A DNA stretch of 64,000 nt, from IMG/VR virus record IMGVR_UViG_3300020472_000012, positions 1 through 64,000 of that record; one strand, written 5' to 3'. A model generated the notes under the pieces. The model did not search any database. It was not told the origin of the DNA and worked only from the letters and a program-made list of their open reading frames with translations. This stretch comes from a virus. Numbering within the stretch: the first letter of the stretch is position 1; each line of letters starts with the position of its first letter. A program made the position numbers and the translations under genes. Shown here piece after piece: positions 15,810 to 38,040 of this stretch.

Positions 15810-18800
15810 ATGCCAACAAAAGCAAGATATCTTGCAGACTTATTAAATGCATCTGGGGAGTTAGACTCTACTGGTGCAGTTGAGAGTATTCAAGATAATA
15901 TATCAACACTATTCAGTGCTGGAACTCATACAGGTATATCATTTACCTATGATGATTCCAATGCAACATTCAGTGCAGCCGTTAATCAAGACGCAGTTGC
16001 AGCTGGATTTTATCACAAAATCGCAGTAACAGTTTCAAGTAGCAAGTATTACTTGGATGGAACACAACAAGCAACAGCGATACTGTCTCCCTCAGTATTG
16101 TATAGATTTGACTTGTCTGATTCATCTAACGCTAATCATCCTCTAAGATTCTCTACTACTTCTGATGGAACACATAACTCTGGTGCAGAAATATCAGCAG
16201 GGTATACAACATATTCTAAACAAGGAACGCCAGGTTCATCTGGTGCATACACAGAAGTATGTTTTGAACAAGACCAAACAAACCCACTTTATTACTATTG
16301 TTCTGCACATAGTGGTATGGGTGGTACTGCATTGTTAGGTATTATGCCTAACTCAGATTTTTTAACAGAAGGTTCAACTAACCTTTACTATACAGACGAG
16401 AAAGTTCAAGATGTGGTTGGTGCTCAAATAGCAACCAATGGTTCACATACTGGATTAACTGCCACCTATGATGATGCTGGTGATGGTGCAATAGATATAG
16501 CACTATCCAGTGAATATGTACAAGACTTAGTAGGTGCAATGGTATCATCTAATACTGAGAGCGGTATTAGTGTAACATACGAAGATGGAGATGGTACTTT
16601 AGACTTCAATGTTAATGACCCAACAATTACCCTTGCTGGTGATGTTACTGGTTCTGCAACAATGACAGATTTAGGTAATGTATCTATTACCACAACCATT
16701 GCAGCTGATAGTATTGCATTAGGAACAGACACAACTGGAAACTATGTACAAACAATAACTGGAACTACAAACGAAATAGAAATATCTGGTTCTGGTTCAG
16801 AAAGTGCAGATGTAACAATAGGTTTACCGAATGATGTAACGATTGGAAATGATTTAACAGTTACAGGAGACTTAACTGTCTCTGGAACTACAACTACTGT
16901 ATCGTCATCAACAGTTGCAATTGCAGATGTAAACATGAAGGTTGCAAAAGATAACGCTGCAAATGCAGTAGACTTTGGAATATATGGTGCATACAATGAT
17001 GGTTCTGGAAAATTTGCTGGACTTAACTGGGATGCATCTGAGTCAGATAAGTTTAGACTCTTTCATGGAACTGCAACAGAACCAACTACTGTAGTAAATA
17101 CTGGTGCAAGTGGTTGGACAAAAGGAACATTAATTGCAGACTTAGAAGGTAACGCTTCTACTGCAACTGCATTAGAAACTTCAAGAACACTTGCATTAGC
17201 AGGTGATGTTACTGGTTCTGCATCTTTTGATGGAAGTGGAAATGCAACAATAACTGCAACTATATCTGCTGACTCTGTTGCATTAGGAACAGACACAACA
17301 GGAAATTATGTTGCAGATGTCGCTGGTGGAACTGGTATTACAGTTACACATAGTGCTGGTGAAGCATCAACACCTAGTGTTGCAGCCGACCTTGCAACAA
17401 CAAGTGCAGTTGGTGTTGCATCATTTAACTCTACAGACTTTACAGTAACTTCTGGTAATGTTGAGTTGGTTGATGAAGCAATTCAAGATGTGGCAGGTGC
17501 TCAATTAGCAACTAATGGTTCACATACTGGTATCACTGCAACATATGATGATGCTGGTGATGGGGCAATTGACCTTGCACTAATAACAGAAAATGTAGAA
17601 GATATAACTGGTGCTCAATTAGCAACCAATGGTTCCCATACAGGAATAACTGCAACTTACGATGATGCTGGAGATGGTGCAATAGACCTTGCATTAGTAA
17701 CAGAGAATGTACAAGACATTGCTGGAGCTCAACTTGCAACTAATGGTTCACATACTGGTATCTCATTTACATATGATGATGCTGGTGATGGTGCTATAGA
17801 TGCAGTAGTAAGTGGTGCAGCTGCAACTATCATATCAGATTTTGGTGAAGCAGTTGCCGACACAGTAGGGGCAATGTTCAGTGGAAACACAGAAACAAAC
17901 ATAACAGCAACATATGTTGATGATGATAATACTATTGACTTAGCCGTTTCTGGTAATATGTCTAGTATCGTATCAGATTATCAAGAAGCAATCGAAGATG
18001 TTGTAGGTGCAATGGTAGGTTCTAATACCGAAAGTGGTATTGCTGTAACATACGATGACACAAATGGTAAGTTAGACTTTGATGTATCAGACCCAACGAT
18101 TACTCTTGCTGGAGATTTAGGTGGTTCTGCAACAATAACTAACTTAGGAAATGCAACCTTAACTGCAACAATACAAGCTGGTTCTGTAGAAAACAGTATG
18201 TTAGCAGGTTCAATTGCAAACAGTAATCTTGCAAATTCAACAATAACAGTTTCCGATGGTTCTAACACAACTGCAACTGCATTGGGTGGAACAATAACAT
18301 TTGCTGGTACTTCAAACGAAGTAGATGTTGCAGAGAGTTCTGGAACAATTACATATGGACTACCATCTGATGTAACAATATCAAACGACTTAACAGTTAG
18401 TGGAGACTTAACAGTTACAGGGTCAACAACTCAAACTGGTGCTGTAGTAACAGACAATAACTTTACAGGGTTAACAAATGCAAACTCTGGAAACTCAACA
18501 GACTTTGGTTTCTATGGTAAGTATGTAGAATCTTCAACCACAAAATATGCTGGTTTATTCTACGATGCATCAACTGATAATACATTCAGACTCTTTAGAG
18601 ATACAGAAACAGTACCTTCAACAACAGTAAATACTTCTGCATCTGGTTATGGTGTTGCAACTCTAGTTGCAAATATTACAGGTGATGTTAGTGGTTCATC
18701 TGGAAGTACAACAGGTAACGCTGCTACTGCAACAGCACTTGCAAGTGCAAGAACTATTAGTGGTGTAAGTTTTGATGGTACTGCAAACATAACTTTAGAT

Positions 18801-19760
18801 ACAGACGACATTGGTGAAGGTTCAAGTAACCTCTATCATACAAGTGAAAGAGTACAAGATGTTGCTGGTGCTCAATTAGCAACTAATGGTTCACATACTG
18901 GTGTTTCAGTTGCATATGACGATGCTGGAGATGGTGCAATTGATATAACAGTTGCAAACTCAGACTTTGCATTGACTGGTGATGTAACTGGTACTGTAAC
19001 ACAGACTGCAAAAGGTAATGTATCAATTGCAACTACGATTGCAGCTGACTCAGTTGCATTAGGAACTGATACTACTGGTAATTATGTTGCTGGAGTAAGT
19101 GGTGGAACTGGTGTTTCAGTTAGTGGTTCTGGTTCAGAGAATGCAACTGCAACAGTTTCAATTGGACAAGCAGTAGCAACAACTAGTGATGTAACCTTTG
19201 CAGATATAGCTGCAACTGGTGATGTAACAATTACTGGTGACTTAACAATAAATGGTACAACAACTACTGCATCATCTACTAACACTGTAATTGCAGATAG
19301 ATTAATAGAATTAGGAAATGGAACTACTGGAACTCCAGCCAATGATATGGGTATTGTTCTTGAAAGAGGTTCATCCGATAATGTGTTTATTGGTTGGGAC
19401 GAAAGTGCAGATGTAGTTACAGTAGGAACTGGTTCATTTACAGGTGCATCAACTGGTGACTTAACAATAACAGCAGCTGCTTTAACAGCTGGAGAGTTCA
19501 CTGGTACTGGTGGTACATTTGGTAATGTTCAAGTAGGTGTAACAGGAGATGGAGAGATTGATACAAGTTCTGGTAACTTAACAATCGATTCTGCTGGTGG
19601 TACAACTACAATAGATGATACTGTATCAATAAGTGGAGCTGCAACAACAGACTATACAACAATTGGAAGTAGTGCAAAATCATTCAGAAATGTGTTCATT
19701 CACGACTCTGCACCGAGTGGTTCAGATGGTGCTGTGGGTGACATCTGGGTAACCTACTAA
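15810..19760 (+). CDS. Large tail fibre with cupredoxin-like insert and repeats
   Basis: A 1316-residue fibre. Residues about 65-185 form a distinct module (YRFDLSDSSNANHPLRFS ... YYYCSAHSGMGG) with H110, C164, H167 and M170 placed like the copper ligands of cupredoxins. Then come five copies of SHTG(I/L/V)...YDDAGDGAID and three blocks of the type LPxDVTIxNDLTVTGDLTVSG (near residues 350, 865 and 1140). The C-terminus SFRNVFIHDSAPSGSDGAVG...IWVTY is a frequent ending of marine phage fibres. Beta-structured shaft predicted. The repeats are strongly conserved at DNA level, so recombination between them is likely. Confidence 0.8.
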   Translation: MPTKARYLADLLNASGELDSTGAVESIQDNISTLFSAGTHTGISFTYDDSNATFSAAVNQDAVAAGFYHKIAVTVSSSKYYLDGTQQATAILSPSVLYRFDLSDSSNANHPLRFSTTSDGTHNSGAEISAGYTTYSKQGTPGSSGAYTEVCFEQDQTNPLYYYCSAHSGMGGTALLGIMPNSDFLTEGSTNLYYTDEKVQDVVGAQIATNGSHTGLTATYDDAGDGAIDIALSSEYVQDLVGAMVSSNTESGISVTYEDGDGTLDFNVNDPTITLAGDVTGSATMTDLGNVSITTTIAADSIALGTDTTGNYVQTITGTTNEIEISGSGSESADVTIGLPNDVTIGNDLTVTGDLTVSGTTTTVSSSTVAIADVNMKVAKDNAANAVDFGIYGAYNDGSGKFAGLNWDASESDKFRLFHGTATEPTTVVNTGASGWTKGTLIADLEGNASTATALETSRTLALAGDVTGSASFDGSGNATITATISADSVALGTDTTGNYVADVAGGTGITVTHSAGEASTPSVAADLATTSAVGVASFNSTDFTVTSGNVELVDEAIQDVAGAQLATNGSHTGITATYDDAGDGAIDLALITENVEDITGAQLATNGSHTGITATYDDAGDGAIDLALVTENVQDIAGAQLATNGSHTGISFTYDDAGDGAIDAVVSGAAATIISDFGEAVADTVGAMFSGNTETNITATYVDDDNTIDLAVSGNMSSIVSDYQEAIEDVVGAMVGSNTESGIAVTYDDTNGKLDFDVSDPTITLAGDLGGSATITNLGNATLTATIQAGSVENSMLAGSIANSNLANSTITVSDGSNTTATALGGTITFAGTSNEVDVAESSGTITYGLPSDVTISNDLTVSGDLTVTGSTTQTGAVVTDNNFTGLTNANSGNSTDFGFYGKYVESSTTKYAGLFYDASTDNTFRLFRDTETVPSTTVNTSASGYGVATLVANITGDVSGSSGSTTGNAATATALASARTISGVSFDGTANITLDTDDIGEGSSNLYHTSERVQDVAGAQLATNGSHTGVSVAYDDAGDGAIDITVANSDFALTGDVTGTVTQTAKGNVSIATTIAADSVALGTDTTGNYVAGVSGGTGVSVSGSGSENATATVSIGQAVATTSDVTFADIAATGDVTITGDLTINGTTTTASSTNTVIADRLIELGNGTTGTPANDMGIVLERGSSDNVFIGWDESADVVTVGTGSFTGASTGDLTITAAALTAGEFTGTGGTFGNVQVGVTGDGEIDTSSGNLTIDSAGGTTTIDDTVSISGAATTDYTTIGSSAKSFRNVFIHDSAPSGSDGAVGDIWVTY

Positions 19761-19798: not shown

Positions 19799-21373
19799 AT
19801 GGCATCAAAGATAAAGACAGGCCCAACAACTTGGACAGATACCTATGGTATGAGGGTAAAGACGCCTGGTGGGTGGAATAAGGTAGTTGATGTTAAGAGG
19901 AAAACTCCTACTGGGTGGCAGTTTGTTACTGGTACAATACAGGTAACTCAACCTTATCAACAGACTTATCAACAACCATATCAGCAACCCTTTCAACAAC
20001 CTTATCAACAACCATATCAGCAACAGAATAGTAGACCTTCTACTTATGAAGTAACTATACCTCGACCTGCTAACTACGAACAGACTATACCTAGACCGAA
20101 TCAATACGAACAAACGATTCCTAGACCTGCTAACTACGAACAGACTATACCTAGACCTTCTAGTTATGAACAAACTATACCTAGACCTTCTAGTTATGAA
20201 CAAACTATACCTAGACCAAATAGTTACGAACAGACAATACCAAGACCTACTACCTATCAGACACAAGGTACTAGGCCTGCATTCTATCAGTCTCAAGGTA
20301 CTAGACCTGCTTCATATGAGCAGACGATACCAAGACCTGCTTCATATGAACAGACGATACCAAGACCTGCTAACTACGAACAAACAATTCCTAGACCAGC
20401 TTTTTATCAGACACAGGGTACACACTTTTATCAAACCCAACATTTGCATCACTTCTATCAGACACAAGGGTCTCACTTTTATCAGACACAGGGTACATCA
20501 TTTCACCAGCACCAAAATGCTGGGTTCCACCAAATACAGAACTCTAGACCAACTACTTATCAGATACAAAATGCAAGACCTACTTTCTATCAAACTCAGA
20601 TAGCTGGATTCTTCCAGCCTGGGCCAGGTTTTAAAAATGGTGGTGGTACATGGTATCCACCTTCACAGCATCAGAATGCAAGACCTACTTTCTATCAAAC
20701 ACAAGGTAGTAGACCAGCATTCTACCAGACACAAGGTACACACTTTTATCAGACACAGCATTTACATCACTTCTATCAGATTCAGAATCAAGGATTCCAT
20801 CAGATACAGAATGCATCATTTCACCAACACCAGAATGCTGGATTCCATCAAGTGCAAAATTCTAGACCTACTTCTTATGAGGTTACTATTCCAAGACCTA
20901 CTTCTTATGAGGTAACAATATCTAGGCCTACAAGTTATGAGGTAACTATACCAAGACCGACTACTTATCAGATACAAAATGCAAGACCTACAACTTATCA
21001 GATACAAAACTCTAGGCCATCTTCATACGAGGTTACAATATCTAGACCTACTTCTTATGAAGTGACTATACCTAGACCTACTTCTTATGAAGTAACAATA
21101 CCTAGACCAACAAGTTATGAGGTAACAATACCTAGACCAACAAGTTATGAGGTAACAATACCGAGACCTACATCATATGAGGTTACTATTCCAAGACCTA
21201 CTTCATATGAACAGACGATAAGTAGACCAACTACTTATCAAGTTACTGCACCTAGACCAGCAACTCGTCCAACAACGAGACCTGCTACTAGACCAAGTAC
21301 AAGACCATCAACAAGACCAGTCTCTACATGGGATGGAGACCTTGCTAAGCCTTGGGATGGTTCATCAGATTAA
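19799..21373 (+). CDS. Tyr/Pro/Gln-rich decapeptide-repeat tail protein
   Basis: A 524-residue protein in three parts. Residues 1-50 are a small Trp/Gly-rich domain (TPGGWNKVVDVKRKTPTGWQ). Residues 51-78 are Gln/Pro-rich (YQQPYQQPFQQP). From residue 79 to about 485 the sequence is nearly all ten-residue repeats: RPxxYEQTIP, RPxxYEVTIP, RPxxYQIQNA and RPxFYQTQGT, with an inner His/Phe form (HFYQTQ, GFHQIQN). A TRPxTRPxT tail and STWDGDLAKPWDGSSD end it. The alternating pattern suggests strands or an extended PPII-like rod. It sits at the end of the fibre block with a ribosome site AGGAGTGAAG. Probably an elongated, perhaps adhesive, fibre; no homologous family is named. Confidence 0.7.
   Translation: MASKIKTGPTTWTDTYGMRVKTPGGWNKVVDVKRKTPTGWQFVTGTIQVTQPYQQTYQQPYQQPFQQPYQQPYQQQNSRPSTYEVTIPRPANYEQTIPRPNQYEQTIPRPANYEQTIPRPSSYEQTIPRPSSYEQTIPRPNSYEQTIPRPTTYQTQGTRPAFYQSQGTRPASYEQTIPRPASYEQTIPRPANYEQTIPRPAFYQTQGTHFYQTQHLHHFYQTQGSHFYQTQGTSFHQHQNAGFHQIQNSRPTTYQIQNARPTFYQTQIAGFFQPGPGFKNGGGTWYPPSQHQNARPTFYQTQGSRPAFYQTQGTHFYQTQHLHHFYQIQNQGFHQIQNASFHQHQNAGFHQVQNSRPTSYEVTIPRPTSYEVTISRPTSYEVTIPRPTTYQIQNARPTTYQIQNSRPSSYEVTISRPTSYEVTIPRPTSYEVTIPRPTSYEVTIPRPTSYEVTIPRPTSYEVTIPRPTSYEQTISRPTTYQVTAPRPATRPTTRPATRPSTRPSTRPVSTWDGDLAKPWDGSSD
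20033..21253 (+). repeat. Tandem 30-bp coding repeats (decapeptide array)
   Basis: About 40 in-frame units of roughly 30 bp, each centred on a core such as CCTAGACCTxCTxxTTATGA. Neighbouring units near 21050-21190 are almost identical at DNA level, while synonymous changes elsewhere show older divergence. Frame is never lost, so selection acts on the protein. Not spacer-repeat DNA: there are no unique spacers between the repeats. Confidence 0.85.
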
Positions 21374-21381
21374 TGATTTGA

Positions 21382-21401
21382 AAGGGTAACTATATACCCT
21401 T
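21382..21401 (+). terminator. Hairpin after repeat-protein gene (AAGGGTA/TACCCTT)
   Basis: A seven-bp perfect stem with a six-base loop, beginning 8 nt after the stop codon. No long T-run follows, only TATAAACTTTATATT, so it is at best a weak terminator or 3'-end stabiliser. Confidence 0.4.
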
Positions 21402-21426
21402 ATAAACTTTATATTATGGAGAAATT

Positions 21427-22062
21427 ATGTTATTAGTATATGACGACAACAATACTCTTCACCTAAGAAATGAAAGAGGACTACGATGGAGTTATGAGAG
21501 AACAGACCGACCAGAGTTGGGGTTCGATTTTGACTACCTATTCTATAACCCACCAGAAGATGAATTCTATGAACTCAATGGTGAGGCACAACCCTTAAGT
21601 CAAGAACAACTTGACCAAGTAAAAGAGTATATCTCTTTATCAGAACCGCCTGATGTAATCACCTTACAAGACCAACATATAGGTGATTTAAAAGACCATA
21701 TCAATCAACAACTAGATGGAATCCTAGATGATTTAGGATATCATGGTTGGGTTGAAGTAATGTTAGTTGGTAGAGAGGGTTCACAAGACCCATATCGTGC
21801 AGAATCAAGACGAGTTCTTGAGTTTAGAGACTGGATATTTCAGACTTTTTATAGACTTGAAGAAGAAATTCGTTTAACTGTAGATGCAGATTTACTATCT
21901 TTGGATGCTTATATCCAGAAATTACCAACTATTCCAAGAGCAGAATGGTTCTCTAGAGGGGATAGACCTATTGCAGAAAGACTTAAACTTCTTGCAGATA
22001 GTGACACTTTAGATGTAAATGAAGGTGAGTCAGCACTAGGGGAAGATAAGAGAGCAGTCTAA
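21427..22062 (+). CDS. Tail-fibre-associated protein, possibly DUF4376-like assembly factor
   Basis: A 211-residue acidic, helical protein. The region from about residue 85 to 185 (RRVLEFRDWIFQTFYRLEEE, later SLDAYIQKLPTIP) resembles the DUF4376-type domain seen in phage tail-fibre assembly proteins: an aromatic RDW segment, then a ...LP.IP ending. It follows the repeat protein and its stop overlaps the next start by one base (TAATG). Fibre assembly or chaperone function is inferred. Resemblance is moderate. Confidence 0.5.
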   Translation: MLLVYDDNNTLHLRNERGLRWSYERTDRPELGFDFDYLFYNPPEDEFYELNGEAQPLSQEQLDQVKEYISLSEPPDVITLQDQHIGDLKDHINQQLDGILDDLGYHGWVEVMLVGREGSQDPYRAESRRVLEFRDWIFQTFYRLEEEIRLTVDADLLSLDAYIQKLPTIPRAEWFSRGDRPIAERLKLLADSDTLDVNEGESALGEDKRAV

Positions 22063-22907
22063 TGTCCGATAGAGATTTATTCTCTTGGATAGACGAACCT
22101 CTTAAAATAGTTCACCTAGAGAAATCACAACCATTAAAACAACTTCCACATAAAGAATGTTGGATAATTGATAATTGGTTACCAGATTCCATCTTCCAAT
22201 CTTGGATAGATTGGAGAAGTCAATCAGTCAATTGGGGATTATCTAATAGAGTAATAAGGGATGGAGAGAAACAACACCTATATTGGGGTGAGTCTTTCTA
22301 TACTTCTTTACGAGAAATTAAAGCTTATCATGGTGGAGATAAGTTAAGAATTCAACCTTTATCAAAAAGAAGATGGAGTAATGTCTCTCCAGATTGGAGA
22401 AAAACAGTCATTAATACTAATGAATCTGGATATTGTCATCCACTTGTTGATAATATTATATGGAGATTGCAACAAGAATTTAGATTTGACTGGGTTAGAT
22501 TTCAATATTGTGGAATGAATGGACAGATAACTGGACAGGATGGAACACTTCATGAGGACACTCATAAGGGTGAGGATGGTATTAATAACCTAACATTTCT
22601 CTTTTATGACCAACCTTACTGGGAAGATGACTGGGGTGGTGATTTAATCTTCTATGATAGTAGGTGTCATGATGAACAATTTGGTAAAGGTATATTAGAA
22701 AACGAAGAAGAATATGAGATTGGTCGTGTTCAATATAAACCTAATAGACTAGTTGTGGTTAATGGAATGATTACACACAGACATCCAGGCCCAACTGCAC
22801 CATATGAGAAACCACATTTTCCTTTTAGAACTTCTTTAGTTTGTCGTGGGGATGAAATAAAGTTGTGGGACAAAGGAGTATATAAACATAAAGAATATGA
22901 ATACTAA
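22062..22907 (+). CDS. 2OG-Fe(II) oxygenase, prolyl-hydroxylase-like
   Basis: A 281-residue enzyme of the 2-oxoglutarate/Fe(II) dioxygenase fold. The metal triad is readable: H164-x-D166 in LHEDTHKG and distal H239 or H241 in ITHRHPGP; R256 in FRTSLV is the likely 2OG-binding arginine. A WGGDLIFYD strand and PNRLVVVNG lie between them as in P4H-type proteins. The gene is coupled to the tail gene upstream and overlaps the next gene by 11 nt. Its place just after the proline-rich repeat protein makes virion protein hydroxylation an attractive but unproven role. Confidence 0.8.
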   Translation: MSDRDLFSWIDEPLKIVHLEKSQPLKQLPHKECWIIDNWLPDSIFQSWIDWRSQSVNWGLSNRVIRDGEKQHLYWGESFYTSLREIKAYHGGDKLRIQPLSKRRWSNVSPDWRKTVINTNESGYCHPLVDNIIWRLQQEFRFDWVRFQYCGMNGQITGQDGTLHEDTHKGEDGINNLTFLFYDQPYWEDDWGGDLIFYDSRCHDEQFGKGILENEEEYEIGRVQYKPNRLVVVNGMITHRHPGPTAPYEKPHFPFRTSLVCRGDEIKLWDKGVYKHKEYEY

Positions 22908-23685
22908 AATAATTTTAATAATGGGATTGCCAGGCTCTGGTAAAACCACTCTTGCAAAACATCTATTAGACTACATTGATGCAGAACATTATGAAGCAGA
23001 TGTTATTAGACAGATAGAAAACGACTGGGACTTCTCCGAAGAAGGGAGAATGAGACAAGTATATCGAATGAGAGAACTTGCACAAACAACTAAAAGACCA
23101 TATGCAATATGTGATTTTGTTTGTCCTTTAGTAGAAGGTAGAGAAATTTTACAACCAGATATAGTTATCTGGATGAATACTATTGAGAAAGGAAGGTTTG
23201 AAGACACCAATCAAGTGTTTGTAGAACCAGAAAAAGTCGATTATCTGGTTACAGATTACAATGCAGAACTACATTCAGAGGTCATTTCTAGAACAATTCT
23301 AGAAACTTCTGCAATTTCTTTTGACCCTAAACTACCAACTACACAGATGTTGGGCAGATATCAACCATTTCATGATGGTCATCTTGCATTATTTGAGAGG
23401 TGTCATGAACAAACTGGTCAAGTAGTTATCATGGTAAGGGATATGCCAGCAGATATAAAGAACCCTTTTGACTTTAAAACCATTAAACAAAACATTAAAT
23501 TATATCTTCTAGGGGAAGGATACGAAGAAAATCATGATTATGTTATCATCAAAGTACCTAATATTGTAGATATTAGTTATGGTAGAGATGTAGGATATAG
23601 TATAACCGAACATAAATTTGATAAAGATGTAGAGGAAATTAGTGCAACAGAGATAAGGAGACAGATTGGCATCAAGGAAAATTAG
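22897..23685 (+). CDS. Fused APS-kinase-like and HxGH nucleotidyltransferase
   Basis: A 262-residue two-domain protein. Residues 1-135 look like an adenylylsulfate kinase: Walker A GLPGSGKTT (10-18), EADVIRQIENDWDFSEEGR and AICDFVCPLVEGRE match the APS-kinase order of motifs. Residues 148-260 are a cytidylyltransferase-fold domain, with GRYQPFHDGH (H159/H162) and the C-terminal ISATEIR (248-254) typical of NadM/NadR-like adenylyltransferases. PAPS synthetases have a similar kinase plus nucleotidyltransferase layout, but the second domain here looks closer to NMN adenylyltransferases. Substrates cannot be fixed from sequence. It overlaps both neighbours and is followed by a DUF2061 gene. Confidence 0.75.
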   Translation: MNTKIILIMGLPGSGKTTLAKHLLDYIDAEHYEADVIRQIENDWDFSEEGRMRQVYRMRELAQTTKRPYAICDFVCPLVEGREILQPDIVIWMNTIEKGRFEDTNQVFVEPEKVDYLVTDYNAELHSEVISRTILETSAISFDPKLPTTQMLGRYQPFHDGHLALFERCHEQTGQVVIMVRDMPADIKNPFDFKTIKQNIKLYLLGEGYEENHDYVIIKVPNIVDISYGRDVGYSITEHKFDKDVEEISATEIRRQIGIKEN

Positions 23686-23911
23686 TCTTATAAAGAGTGT
23701 CAGTTATAGAGTTTTAGCAATTTCTATCACTGGTCTTACTGGTTACTTCGTAACTGGGAGTCTAATTTTTGCAGCCACGATAGTCTACATAGATACTTTA
23801 TTGAAGATAGTATTCTATTATTGGCATGAAAGAGTATGGGAAAGAATACAAAAGAAGATGAAAAAGAATAAAGATTGGAGAATTGGAACAGTATGGGAAA
23901 AGAGGAAGTAG
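23666..23911 (+). CDS. DUF2061 membrane protein
   Basis: An 81-residue protein with the DUF2061 pattern: KSVSYRVLAISITGL, a glycine-bearing helix (GYFVTGSLIFAATIVYIDTL) and the conserved KIVFYYWHERVWERI ending. Two membrane helices are predicted with a basic C-terminal tail. TTG start inside the previous gene (20-nt overlap). DUF2061 genes often lie beside APS-kinase genes, which fits the neighbour. Biochemical role unknown. Confidence 0.8.
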   Translation: MASRKISLIKSVSYRVLAISITGLTGYFVTGSLIFAATIVYIDTLLKIVFYYWHERVWERIQKKMKKNKDWRIGTVWEKRK

Positions 23912-24936
23912 GTAAATGTCCTATAGACCACTCTAAACCAAAGAAGTCTATAAGAGCATCTGGAACATTTGATAGGAGTGAGACTCATACTATCAAGTTT
24001 ACTACGCCTTGGGATGATGCATTTGATGTATTCCAACCAGTTCCGATGTCCGAAGCACAACCAGATTGGTGGAATAAACTATCAATATATGTCCATGATG
24101 ACAAGTTTACTAAACAACAAACTGGTAAAGGATGTCCATCTATGCATGATATTATGAATACTGGGTACATTATTAGAACCCACAAGACTATATTAGTTGT
24201 TCAAATACCAGATTGTGAAGACAAAGAAGAACCATATAGTGACCCAGAGTTTCAATGTACTTGGTGTGATGAGACATGTGACCCAGAATCAGAAGTAGGA
24301 AAGAGACATAGAAGGTTACACAACCACGACCAAGGCGGTACTGCATATGTAATTAAAGATGAATATGTAGAAGATATGACTCAATATATGAGAGAATGTA
24401 TCGAAAATGATGTAGGTAGAAGAGATATGTATTTCGATTTACTCAATGAAGAACATCAATCAAACAAATGGATTGACTGGAGATATGAAATAACAGGTGG
24501 TCACAATGGCGGTCAACTGTTAGGTTCAGATTTTGACCATAGGTTGTCTATAAAATTCAGACAGCCTTGGACAATTTCTACTCCAGAAGGTACATCGTGT
24601 TATTGGTTAGACCCATTTCTAAAGATGAATGACAACTGGACAGCAATGCAAGGTGTCATTGATACTGATGGGTTTAACCAAATTGATACGAATTGTATAA
24701 CAATTATACATCCATTAACTAATGAAAACTTTATTATACCGAAAGGAACACCAATTGTCCAGATAGTTCCCTTTGTTAGAACTAAGTGGAAACACGAATT
24801 GGAATTAAATATGGACATAAAACAAGACTTCATGCATACACCAGAGATGAAAGAGTTGGGAGAAAAGGGTGAGAGTGGTGATGGTAAAAAGAATGTTTAC
24901 AGAAAAAACTTCTGGGAAGTAAAGGAGTTTAAGTAA
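23893..24936 (+). CDS. Hypothetical protein, DUF6065-like
   Basis: A 347-residue protein from the ATG at 23893, with GGAG 12 nt upstream; a TTG 18 nt earlier is also in frame. It overlaps the DUF2061 stop. Beta-rich, with CPSMHDIMNTGYIIRTHKTI, a four-Cys cluster including CTWCDETC (possible metal site), and a late HPLTNENFIIPKGTPIVQIVP segment. That last segment resembles the double-stranded-helix end of DUF6065-type proteins. No catalytic triad visible. It lies in the oxygenase cassette and shares one base with the next gene (TAATG). Confidence 0.5.
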   Translation: MGKEEVGKCPIDHSKPKKSIRASGTFDRSETHTIKFTTPWDDAFDVFQPVPMSEAQPDWWNKLSIYVHDDKFTKQQTGKGCPSMHDIMNTGYIIRTHKTILVVQIPDCEDKEEPYSDPEFQCTWCDETCDPESEVGKRHRRLHNHDQGGTAYVIKDEYVEDMTQYMRECIENDVGRRDMYFDLLNEEHQSNKWIDWRYEITGGHNGGQLLGSDFDHRLSIKFRQPWTISTPEGTSCYWLDPFLKMNDNWTAMQGVIDTDGFNQIDTNCITIIHPLTNENFIIPKGTPIVQIVPFVRTKWKHELELNMDIKQDFMHTPEMKELGEKGESGDGKKNVYRKNFWEVKEFK

Positions 24937-25676
24937 TGTTACATCAATTATTTCCAACTAATGTATTCACTTTTAACATGATAGGGGATGACCCATACTA
25001 TCAGATGTCAGAAAAGAACTGGGATAAGTTAATTAAAGAGTCTTATACCATGAGAAAGAAAGACCCAGTAGGAAGATTTAGGTCAAATGATGAGAGTGGA
25101 TGGCAGTCTAACGATGGTGTAGAGAACAATGCAGTCTTCCAACCCATGCTTAATAGAATGAATAGGTTCTTTGACAAGGAAGTATTTCCTTTCTATGGTG
25201 CAACTGATAACGAATTAAAACTACAACATGGTAATTATTGGGTTAATATAAATGGATTAGGTGGTCATAATCATGCACATACACATCCAGGCTGTTGGTA
25301 TTCTGGAGTAATATACCTACAAGTACCTAAAGGAATGGATAGAGGTGGACTACAAATCATAGACCAGAACATAAAACACATGTCTCAGTTCCCTTTAATG
25401 TCTAACAGAAGTGATATGTGGTGGAGAGTTCAACCAGAAAAAGGATTATTAATATTATTTCCTTCTGGAATATATCATTTCGTAGAACCTAACGATGCAG
25501 ATGGAGATAGAATTTCTATTGCATTTAATAATTCTTTTGTTGATAGACAAGTTATTGCAAACCATTACGATGAACTTCCTTATGGAATGGTTAACACACA
25601 TCCAGAACAAACACCAAAAAGATATGATGATAGTATAGTAGTGCAACCAGATGGCACTTTAGAATTCCCTAAATAG
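24936..25676 (+). CDS. 2OG-Fe(II) oxygenase, TIGR02466 type
   Basis: A 246-residue protein. The segment NYWVNINGLGGHNHAHTHPG, followed by SGVIYLQVP, is the signature of the TIGR02466 putative 2OG-Fe(II) oxygenase family; H111-H117 give the proximal histidines. LLILFPSGIYHFVEPND supplies the distal His, and DRISIAFN the 2OG-binding Arg. Length is close to family norms (about 200-250). It closes the 22-25.7 kb enzyme cassette just before the neck genes. Substrate unknown. Confidence 0.82.
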   Translation: MLHQLFPTNVFTFNMIGDDPYYQMSEKNWDKLIKESYTMRKKDPVGRFRSNDESGWQSNDGVENNAVFQPMLNRMNRFFDKEVFPFYGATDNELKLQHGNYWVNINGLGGHNHAHTHPGCWYSGVIYLQVPKGMDRGGLQIIDQNIKHMSQFPLMSNRSDMWWRVQPEKGLLILFPSGIYHFVEPNDADGDRISIAFNNSFVDRQVIANHYDELPYGMVNTHPEQTPKRYDDSIVVQPDGTLEFPK

Positions 25677-36714: not shown

Positions 36715-38040
36715 ATGTCTGAACAAGATATACAAAACCAAGAAACCGAAGTAGTCGAAGGTGCAGCTGTACCACAGGCGAAAGGTGCCGTTACCCCAGA
36801 CCCAGATGCTCCTAAGAAAGCAGTTGCTGCAGTTGATAAAGCCGGAGATGCCACTAAACCTTCTAAAAAAAGGAAAGGTGACCAAGAAGGTGGAGACAAA
36901 GCAGCTCCTAAGCAGGAAGAGGTAGAGTCTGATAGTGATGAAGTCGTTGTAGAAGATTTGACCAAAATGGAAGCTCTTCGTGCAATTATTGAAGAACTAA
37001 AGGGTTTGGAAAAAGACGAAATTAAATCCCTCTATGCTGAAATGGTTAAGAAAGAAGAAGATGAAGATGATGAAGACGAAGATGACGATGAAGAAGTCGA
37101 TGAGTCTACAAAAGCTGACCTTCTTAGAAAAATTGCTGAACATTTCAAGACAGAGGACGAAGATACTGTAAAAGAAGCATACGCTGCTATTACAGAGAAG
37201 AAAGAAGAAGTCGAAGATGACGAAGACGATTCAGAAGATGACGATGAGTCAGATGATGATGAAGATGAAGTCAAAGAGAAAACTAAGAAAGAAGAAGTAG
37301 AAATTGATATGTCTGATGACATTGAAGCTTTAATTTCTGGTGAAGACGAACTTTCAGAAGAATTCCAAAACAAAGCAAAAGTAGTTTTTGAAGCTGCTGT
37401 ATCTGCAAAAGTAAACCAAATTCGAGAAGAACTTGAAAAAGAATCTCTTGAAAGAGTTGTTGAAACAACTGGTGAAATCAAAGAAGAACTTGTTACTAAA
37501 GTTGATTCTTTCCTTTCATATGTTGCAGAAGAGTGGGTTAAAGATAACGAACTTGCAATCGAGAGAGGACTTAAGTCCGAACTCACAGAGAATTTTATAA
37601 CAGGTCTTAAAGACTTGTTTGAAGACCATTATGTTGAAGTTCCATCTGACAAACTAGATGTTGTCGATGAACTTGCTGGTAAAGTTGAAGAAGTTGAACA
37701 GAGACTTAACGAAGAAGTTTCTAAGAACATTGATTTAACTGCTTCCAATGAAGAACTAGTTAAAGACAAAGTGGTTCGAGAAGTTTCACAAGACTTAACT
37801 GAACAAGAAGTTGAGAAACTTGGTAAATTAATCGAAGACATAGATTTTAACGATGAGTTTGAATCAAATGTCAAAACCATCAAAGAGTCTTATTTTGACA
37901 ACTCTGCTAAAGAGACTGTCCAATTAGACGAACAGATGGTGGCAAGTGAAGGAGAAGAAAGTGGTTCGACTGACGACAAAATCGTTGACCCAACCATGGC
38001 TGCCTACTCTGCCGCAATAAAGAGGGTTAACCCACTATAA
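36715..38040 (+). CDS. gp22: Scaffold / prohead core protein gp22
   Basis: A 441-residue scaffold, longer than T4 gp22 (269). The N-terminal 180 residues are extremely acidic, with runs such as KKEEDEDDEDEDDDEEVDES and EDDEDDSEDDDESDDDEDEV. Two similar helical units (MEALRAIIEELKGLEKDEIK, ADLLRKIAEHFKTEDEDTVK) precede the runs. The C-terminal half is the conserved coiled-coil scaffold (residues 205-420, with FQNKAKVVFEAAVSAKVNQI), and the end TMAAYSAAIKRVNPL is typical. Degraded by gp21 during maturation. Confidence 0.9.
   Translation: MSEQDIQNQETEVVEGAAVPQAKGAVTPDPDAPKKAVAAVDKAGDATKPSKKRKGDQEGGDKAAPKQEEVESDSDEVVVEDLTKMEALRAIIEELKGLEKDEIKSLYAEMVKKEEDEDDEDEDDDEEVDESTKADLLRKIAEHFKTEDEDTVKEAYAAITEKKEEVEDDEDDSEDDDESDDDEDEVKEKTKKEEVEIDMSDDIEALISGEDELSEEFQNKAKVVFEAAVSAKVNQIREELEKESLERVVETTGEIKEELVTKVDSFLSYVAEEWVKDNELAIERGLKSELTENFITGLKDLFEDHYVEVPSDKLDVVDELAGKVEEVEQRLNEEVSKNIDLTASNEELVKDKVVREVSQDLTEQEVEKLGKLIEDIDFNDEFESNVKTIKESYFDNSAKETVQLDEQMVASEGEESGSTDDKIVDPTMAAYSAAIKRVNPL

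Follow-up and report, generated by a model that had tools for sequence, protein, structure and literature searches.

The DNA analysed here (the window) comprises the first 64,000 nucleotides of the 114-kb viral record IMGVR_UViG_3300020472_000012. The source is a T4-like marine phage, and our subject is a block of plus-strand genes encoding a Pro/Tyr/Gln-rich repeat protein and two 2-oxoglutarate (2OG)-Fe(II) oxygenases, flanked by tail-fibre-like genes upstream, then by Ad2, neck and terminase genes. Two tail-fibre-like genes immediately precede the repeat gene; the nearer, of 1316 residues (15810-19760), holds this position in relatives too and is presumed to be the mounting point. The repeat protein, of 524 residues, is encoded at 19799-21373 and is taken here as a fold-back fibre. 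A 211-residue protein (21427-22062) stands between it and a 281-residue oxygenase (22062-22907), and a second oxygenase lies at 24936-25676. Two groups of relatives were compared. The window clade, about 30 contigs, was assembled by IMG/VR scans with the oxygenase and the repeat protein, and a sister clade was reached by a scan with the neck protein, at neck identities of 47-56%. Some loci represent one contig in overlapping copies, so that locus counts are not independent.

The repeat protein begins with a domain of 49 residues (19799-19945) carrying K-V-K-T-P-x-G-W motifs, homologous to the N-terminus of sister-clade gene 1 and presumed to form the base or anchor. The outgoing arm, residues 50-270 (19946-20608), and the returning arm, residues 288-510 (20660-21328), are 221 and 223 residues in length and are separated by a 17-residue tip, residues 271-287 (FFQPGPGFKNGGGTWYP, 20609-20659). 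A WDG...W motif, residues 511-524 (21329-21373), completes the chain and is common to sister-clade gene 2 (RWDGxLxQxWP). RPxxY decapeptides number 30 in the protein and are joined by about a dozen octapeptides of the HFYQTQGS/GFHQIQNS type, and Tandem Repeats Finder identifies matching arrays in the DNA. The first-pass annotation described about 40 decapeptides in a 524-residue protein; the length stands, the count only if octapeptides are included. Judged from sequence, the repeat is not a chance pattern, being kept in relatives and tighter than first described. No match to the protein was found in Pfam, PHROGs or named phages beyond low-complexity hits (Lactobacillus and Ruminococcus phages).

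Pro and Tyr occupy opposite parities over hundreds of residues in both clades. Consecutive Pro-Pro spacings are even in 89% of cases in the window clade and 95% in the sister clade, as against 52% in neighbouring proteins, and the register survives unit lengths of 4, 6, 8, 10, 12 and 18. Tyr at the third position after Pro is enriched about 5-fold in both clades, with P-x-x-Y accounting for 69% and 63% of all Tyr in the window and sister clades, respectively. The register is looser in some window-clade proteins (L006, L012 and L018). A two-faced extended beta strand calls for a two-residue register, whereas collagen-type and polyproline helices have a period of three and disordered chains have none. 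Since the register here is of two residues an ordered beta-type fibre is favoured. A collagen-like fibre of Gly-X-Y triplets was also considered and is ruled out by the period of two rather than three.

The tip is the centre of a mirror symmetry. The flip of parity in the window protein falls between about residue 212 and the tip, passing through a His block. The outgoing arm carries HLH (residues 215-217, 20441-20449) and HQH (residues 236-238, 20504-20512), the returning arm HLH (residues 321-323, 20759-20767) and HQH (residues 342-344, 20822-20830), and these motifs are exactly mirrored, with central positions summing to 559 (216+343 = 237+322). The same sum recurs in L003 with the motifs at other positions, and in L004, which is 80 residues longer with arms of 261/263, it is 639. 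Four HxH motifs occur in the window, L001 and L004 and six in L003; there are none in L014, and L012 is devoid of His. Only the window, L001, L003 and L004 have the mirrored blocks.

A mirror score that pooled residue classes lost sharpness through the 10-residue period and was replaced by mutual information calculated per offset. Between the arms of window-clade proteins the antiparallel value peaks at offset -1 in both subclades, reaching 1.56 and 1.39 bits, and falls to 0.33 and 0.10 bits once the units of one arm are put in shuffled order; parallel pairing in the larger subclade yields 0.1 bits or less. The window protein alone gives 1.87 bits, a value reached in none of 300 shuffles. Among facing residues R-E/E-R pairs are enriched 9-11-fold and, one offset further, Y-R/R-Y pairs 7-9-fold. 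Two adjacent sums fit, 559 (histidines and Y-R pairs) or 560 (R-E and Y-P pairs); counting of Pro-Pro pairs alone cannot set the register in this clade, owing to the strict period.

The sister clade usually has two Pro/Tyr/Gln-rich proteins, occasionally one, upstream of the 211-residue gene and an oxygenase 29-35% identical to that of the window. The repeat units are entirely different (SPFTY, QEPNIR and PYIANA among them), and it is the N-terminal KTPxGW domain and the C-terminal WDG motif that tie these proteins to the window protein. With arm 1 measured from the N-terminal domain to the last in-phase PxxY/F and arm 2 from its start to WDG, the arm lengths of genes 1 and 2 are matched (r = 0.976, Spearman 0.989) over 43 distinct combinations of 186-554 residues, the commonest difference being -2 residues. 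Several of the larger mismatches have a visible cause. In L136-L141 the end rule catches a globular tip, and in L180 and L182, which are the same contigs as L073/L074, the mismatch is a loss of repeats or a collapse in assembly, six close relatives having arms of 522/524. In L203-L210 the two genes stand in swapped order, and the commonest of these still has arms of matched length (216/218).

Complementarity extends to these separate proteins. In 23 non-redundant pairs, picked with arm lengths no more than 8 residues apart, 985 of the 1,041 arm-2 prolines lie opposite an arm-1 proline in antiparallel alignment, and one common offset is the best for 22 pairs. Mutual information is 1.3-1.6 bits at this register, about 0.5 far from it, 0.3 for parallel pairing and no higher than 0.41 when partners are mismatched. 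Facing residue types form an almost symmetric table (R-I/I-R, F-E/E-F, H-R/R-H and Y-A/A-Y), and cognate modules recur, HRSPFTY opposite QEPNIR and PYIANARQ opposite QNRQPFTY. Smoothed zone composition gives a negative antiparallel correlation because the paired modules differ in sequence. We regard a paired-arm architecture, as read from these alignments, as very probable. A DNA palindrome as the cause is ruled out because the arm codons are not reverse complements.

The repeat gene and the oxygenase travel together. Window-clade contigs of sufficient length keep the order of 1316-residue tail-fibre protein, repeat protein, 211-residue protein and oxygenase, and the four loci with only the oxygenase and the one with only the repeat gene are all cut by a contig end. 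In L003 and L004 a neighbouring kinase gene is truncated, and the repeat gene and oxygenases are retained. Among the sister-clade loci that extend 6.8 kb or more upstream from the neck gene, 16 of 17 have the repeat gene, L075 being the exception. Scanning with the N-terminal domain produced 80 further loci, 77 with the oxygenase and three that end too early. Nine distant T4-like loci with comparable upstream DNA have neither the oxygenase nor the repeat gene; one of the nine, L120, has the second oxygenase alone. The co-occurrence looked for by the first-pass annotation is thus borne out on every sufficiently long contig, in two divergent clades with unrelated units, the one doubtful case being the short, rearranged L075. 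Because the genes co-occur even where the repeat units are entirely different, a functional link between the two proteins is plausible. The 211-residue protein separates them in both clades without exception. It belongs to no known family on comparison with Pfam and PHROGs, and a role as assembly helper or chaperone is a guess only.

The oxygenase matches PF13640 (2OG-FeII_Oxy_3-like) with E = 2.2e-5, which misses Pfam's curated cut-off, and phrog_274 with E = 1e-12. All 19 sequences compared, among them the homologues of S-CAM1 and P-SSM2, keep the triad H164-x-D166 and H239 and the 2OG-binding Arg256, which upholds the earlier report of a full triad in an enzyme two genes on from the repeat protein, with one gene between. 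Such conservation identifies 22062-22907 as a 2OG-Fe(II) oxygenase, real though weak in its family match. The structural model, with a predicted template-modelling score of 0.71, resembles 2OG oxygenases, a superfamily defined by a double-stranded beta-helix that bears an HxD...H iron triad and a basic residue for 2OG binding; a PDB sequence search with the oxygenase profile found no match. Prolyl 4-hydroxylases of the collagen, plant and PBCV-1 type use Lys as the 2OG-binding residue and PHD-type enzymes use Arg. The invariant residue here is Arg256, Lys250 not being kept in the sister clade, and this is compatible with the PHD-type prolyl hydroxylases. The second oxygenase, which the first-pass annotation did not mention, matches PF13759 with E = 1.7e-22 and is kept in both clades. 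We note that the records of S-CAM1 and others give phrog_274 members the label 'DNA endonuclease V', yet these homologues and the window protein share the 2OG-Fe(II) oxygenase residues; to judge by these residues the label looks wrong.

A GT8-like glycosyltransferase is encoded between the repeat genes and the oxygenase in the sister clade only. Eight of 11 members match PF01501 (best 2.5e-5) and the protein is homologous to annotated phage glycosyltransferases; a PDB sequence search with its profile gave nothing useful, and a search of the window's record found no copy there.

In the arrangement that we favour the chain would leave the base domain, run out as an extended arm of roughly 220 residues with a Pro face alternating with a Tyr face, turn at the short Gly-rich tip and come back as a second arm of equal length. 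The returning arm would pair antiparallel with the first, or with the arm of a neighbouring copy, in one register fixed by the complementary units; in the sister clade each arm is a protein of its own. The oxygenase, probably together with the second oxygenase and the sister-clade glycosyltransferase, would be a dedicated fibre-modifying enzyme, most likely hydroxylating the fibre prolines to tune stiffness or to create sites for sugars. On balance we think that this ordered out-and-back beta fibre of a T4-like marine phage, with the oxygenase as its modifier, is the probable explanation of the locus. That the repeat protein is a tail-associated fibre is likely; the terms 'virion protein' and 'adhesive' used in the first-pass annotation would draw their support from the two tail-fibre-like genes directly upstream. 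For action of the oxygenase on the fibre the odds are about even, and proline as the target is put forward tentatively, at somewhat less than that. Hydroxylation of Tyr, the other target suggested initially, is unlikely because it is tyrosinases and not 2OG oxygenases that produce 3,4-dihydroxyphenylalanine (DOPA), and no tyrosinase was detected among ten neighbouring proteins scanned in Pfam.

What would such a fibre mean? Two matched repeat arms, from one gene or two, with units pairing in the manner of complementary modules, would act as a genetically encoded ruler fixing fibre length. Length and register could be read off the sequence, and the fibre would serve as a model for programmable beta fibres. 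The locus would also allow a test of whether a phage hydroxylates its virion fibre with an enzyme of its own, and it points to a substrate for one family of the 2OG oxygenases that abound in marine T4-like phages. A phage fibre as such is of a known kind and it is the module pairing that we rate as novel; a fibre of this sort is absent from the open-access literature searched, most subscription journals lying outside that search. A more speculative and rather doubtful extension would be a protein pairing code, in which cognate modules align chains or arms antiparallel over 200-550 residues, length and register are set by the sequence and evolve by matched insertions, and dedicated enzymes hydroxylate the proline rungs, with glycosylation added in the sister clade, which would make the fibre the phage equivalent of hydroxyproline-rich glycoproteins.

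Several observations weigh against the modified beta fibre. An AlphaFold2 model of the repeat-protein monomer has a predicted local distance difference test score of 30 and no confident fold, with the caveat that the method is ill suited to a low-complexity oligomer represented by 11 sequences. The nearest PDB folds to the oxygenase, found with Foldseek and informative at superfamily level only, are the small-molecule 2OG oxygenases FtmOx1 and SptF; a bacterial prolyl 4-hydroxylase (from P. putida, 4j25) appears only at rank 20. L075 has the oxygenase without the repeat gene, on a contig that is short and rearranged. The co-occurring genes form one syntenic block, perhaps of one ancestry, and the second oxygenase accompanies the repeat gene just as consistently in both clades. 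PBCV-1 also has a virus-encoded 2OG hydroxylase, proposed to place 4-hydroxyproline in viral proteins, but this is a eukaryotic virus and to our knowledge its hydroxylase and substrate genes have not been described as a conserved pair. The PBCV-1 prolyl 4-hydroxylase has characterised peptide substrates, and amino-acid analysis of the virions found no hydroxyproline, according to the passage of PMC7019647 that cites refs 161-162 (ref. 162 for the virions).

The explanation that ranks next to our own has the fibre as proposed and the oxygenases acting elsewhere, on another tail protein, host translation, a nucleotide or in DNA repair, the genes only travelling together in one block; the synteny of the whole block is in keeping with this. 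Cyanomyoviruses have many 2OG oxygenases at scattered places, nine of them in S-SZBM1, and a role in DNA repair has been proposed (PMC9146016). The S-CAM1 and P-SSM2 phrog_274 proteins have the same H, D, H and R residues but are shorter (about 160-170 residues) and 24-28% identical over the alignment, and no homologue of the repeat protein was found in the phage records searched. The P-SSM2 homologue sits among replication genes, as this explanation would have it; that of S-CAM1, however, adjoins tail-fibre and chaperone genes, and the oxygenase of our two clades stays within a few genes of the fibre despite truncation of the kinase, presence or absence of the glycosyltransferase and swapped fibre genes. 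Action elsewhere is a real possibility, though not one we would expect.

The known system closest to the proposed fibre in working mode, rather than by demonstrated family membership, is the gp37 needle of the T4 long tail fibre, a trimer with seven irons along its length (PMC6957217). There the chain of a phage fibre runs out to a tip and back, as is proposed here, with HxH histidines on one face, and the repeat protein might simply be a needle of this type, a lengthened homotrimer with iron-binding HxH. The out-and-back chain, the HxH motifs of one parity mirrored about the tip and the tail-fibre neighbours would all agree. Yet the repeat protein has no sequence match to gp37 families, nor does any Pfam or PHROG fibre family match it; it differs in its repeat arms of 186-554 residues and its Pro/Tyr dyad register, and the mirrored histidines are limited to the four members named above, L012 lacking His altogether. 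We know of no two-gene form of gp37, and consider this explanation unlikely.

The first-pass annotation likened the protein to mussel adhesives, that is, a disordered Pro/Tyr-rich chain hardened by hydroxylation of Pro or Tyr. Mussel foot protein 1 does share the decapeptide style rich in Pro and Tyr, and the adjacent oxygenase and lack of an AlphaFold fold would suit such a protein. The mussel protein is, however, disordered, Lys-rich and without paired arms, its DOPA arising via tyrosinase, whereas the phage repeat proteins have 0.4-1.6% Lys in relatives, no Cys in the window clade and no tyrosinase among the scanned neighbours. A disordered adhesive needs no even-residue register, equal arms or residue-by-residue antiparallel complementarity; these fit an ordered paired fibre, and the likeness to mussel adhesives, very improbable in our view, is set aside. 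Plant extensins, hydroxyproline-rich glycoproteins, offer a further parallel in combining Pro/Tyr repeats with a hydroxylase, and the sister clade has its adjacent glycosyltransferase, but there is no homology, and modification of the phage fibre is only predicted. Plants use other glycosyltransferase families.

That the complementary arms are a by-product of repeat duplication or gene conversion, without structural pairing, is hardly credible: repeat arrays do duplicate readily and many window-clade units are identical in both arms, but paired sister-clade units differ (HRSPFTY opposite QEPNIR and the reverse), the signal is lost with mismatched partners or shuffled unit order, and the codons of the arms are not reverse complements.

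Some features of individual loci deserve mention. The sister-clade glycosyltransferase (L062:4412-5983 and orthologues) is a protein of about 520 residues, of which the C-terminal half is GT8-like and the N-terminal half conserved (SIQxEGLWxPIQG...IHPGSVR). A Hint (hedgehog/intein-type) domain ends gene 1, after a Gly-rich stretch and a Cys, in L071:809-2260, L054:1485-3260, L082:853-2955 and, more weakly, L080:2397-3662; the start of such a domain is present in at least 6 of 80 loci, and it could process or attach the fibre tip. An extra open reading frame between the repeat gene and the 211-residue gene, L010:2000-2605, matches PF09694 (Gcw_chp, 5.6e-20), a bacterial family of unknown function, and one of equal length starts at L029:2002.

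In the window itself, the gene at 22897-23685 encodes a phrog_10255 protein that combines P-loop kinase and cytidylyltransferase-like parts. This is the kinase truncated in L003 and L004; it is restricted to the window clade and occurs where the glycosyltransferase is missing. A 353-residue phrog_7084 protein of unknown function (23875-24936) lies between the oxygenases in both clades. Further downstream, tandem runs of Glu/Asp-type codons (GAAGAC, GATGAA) occupy positions 37052-37277.

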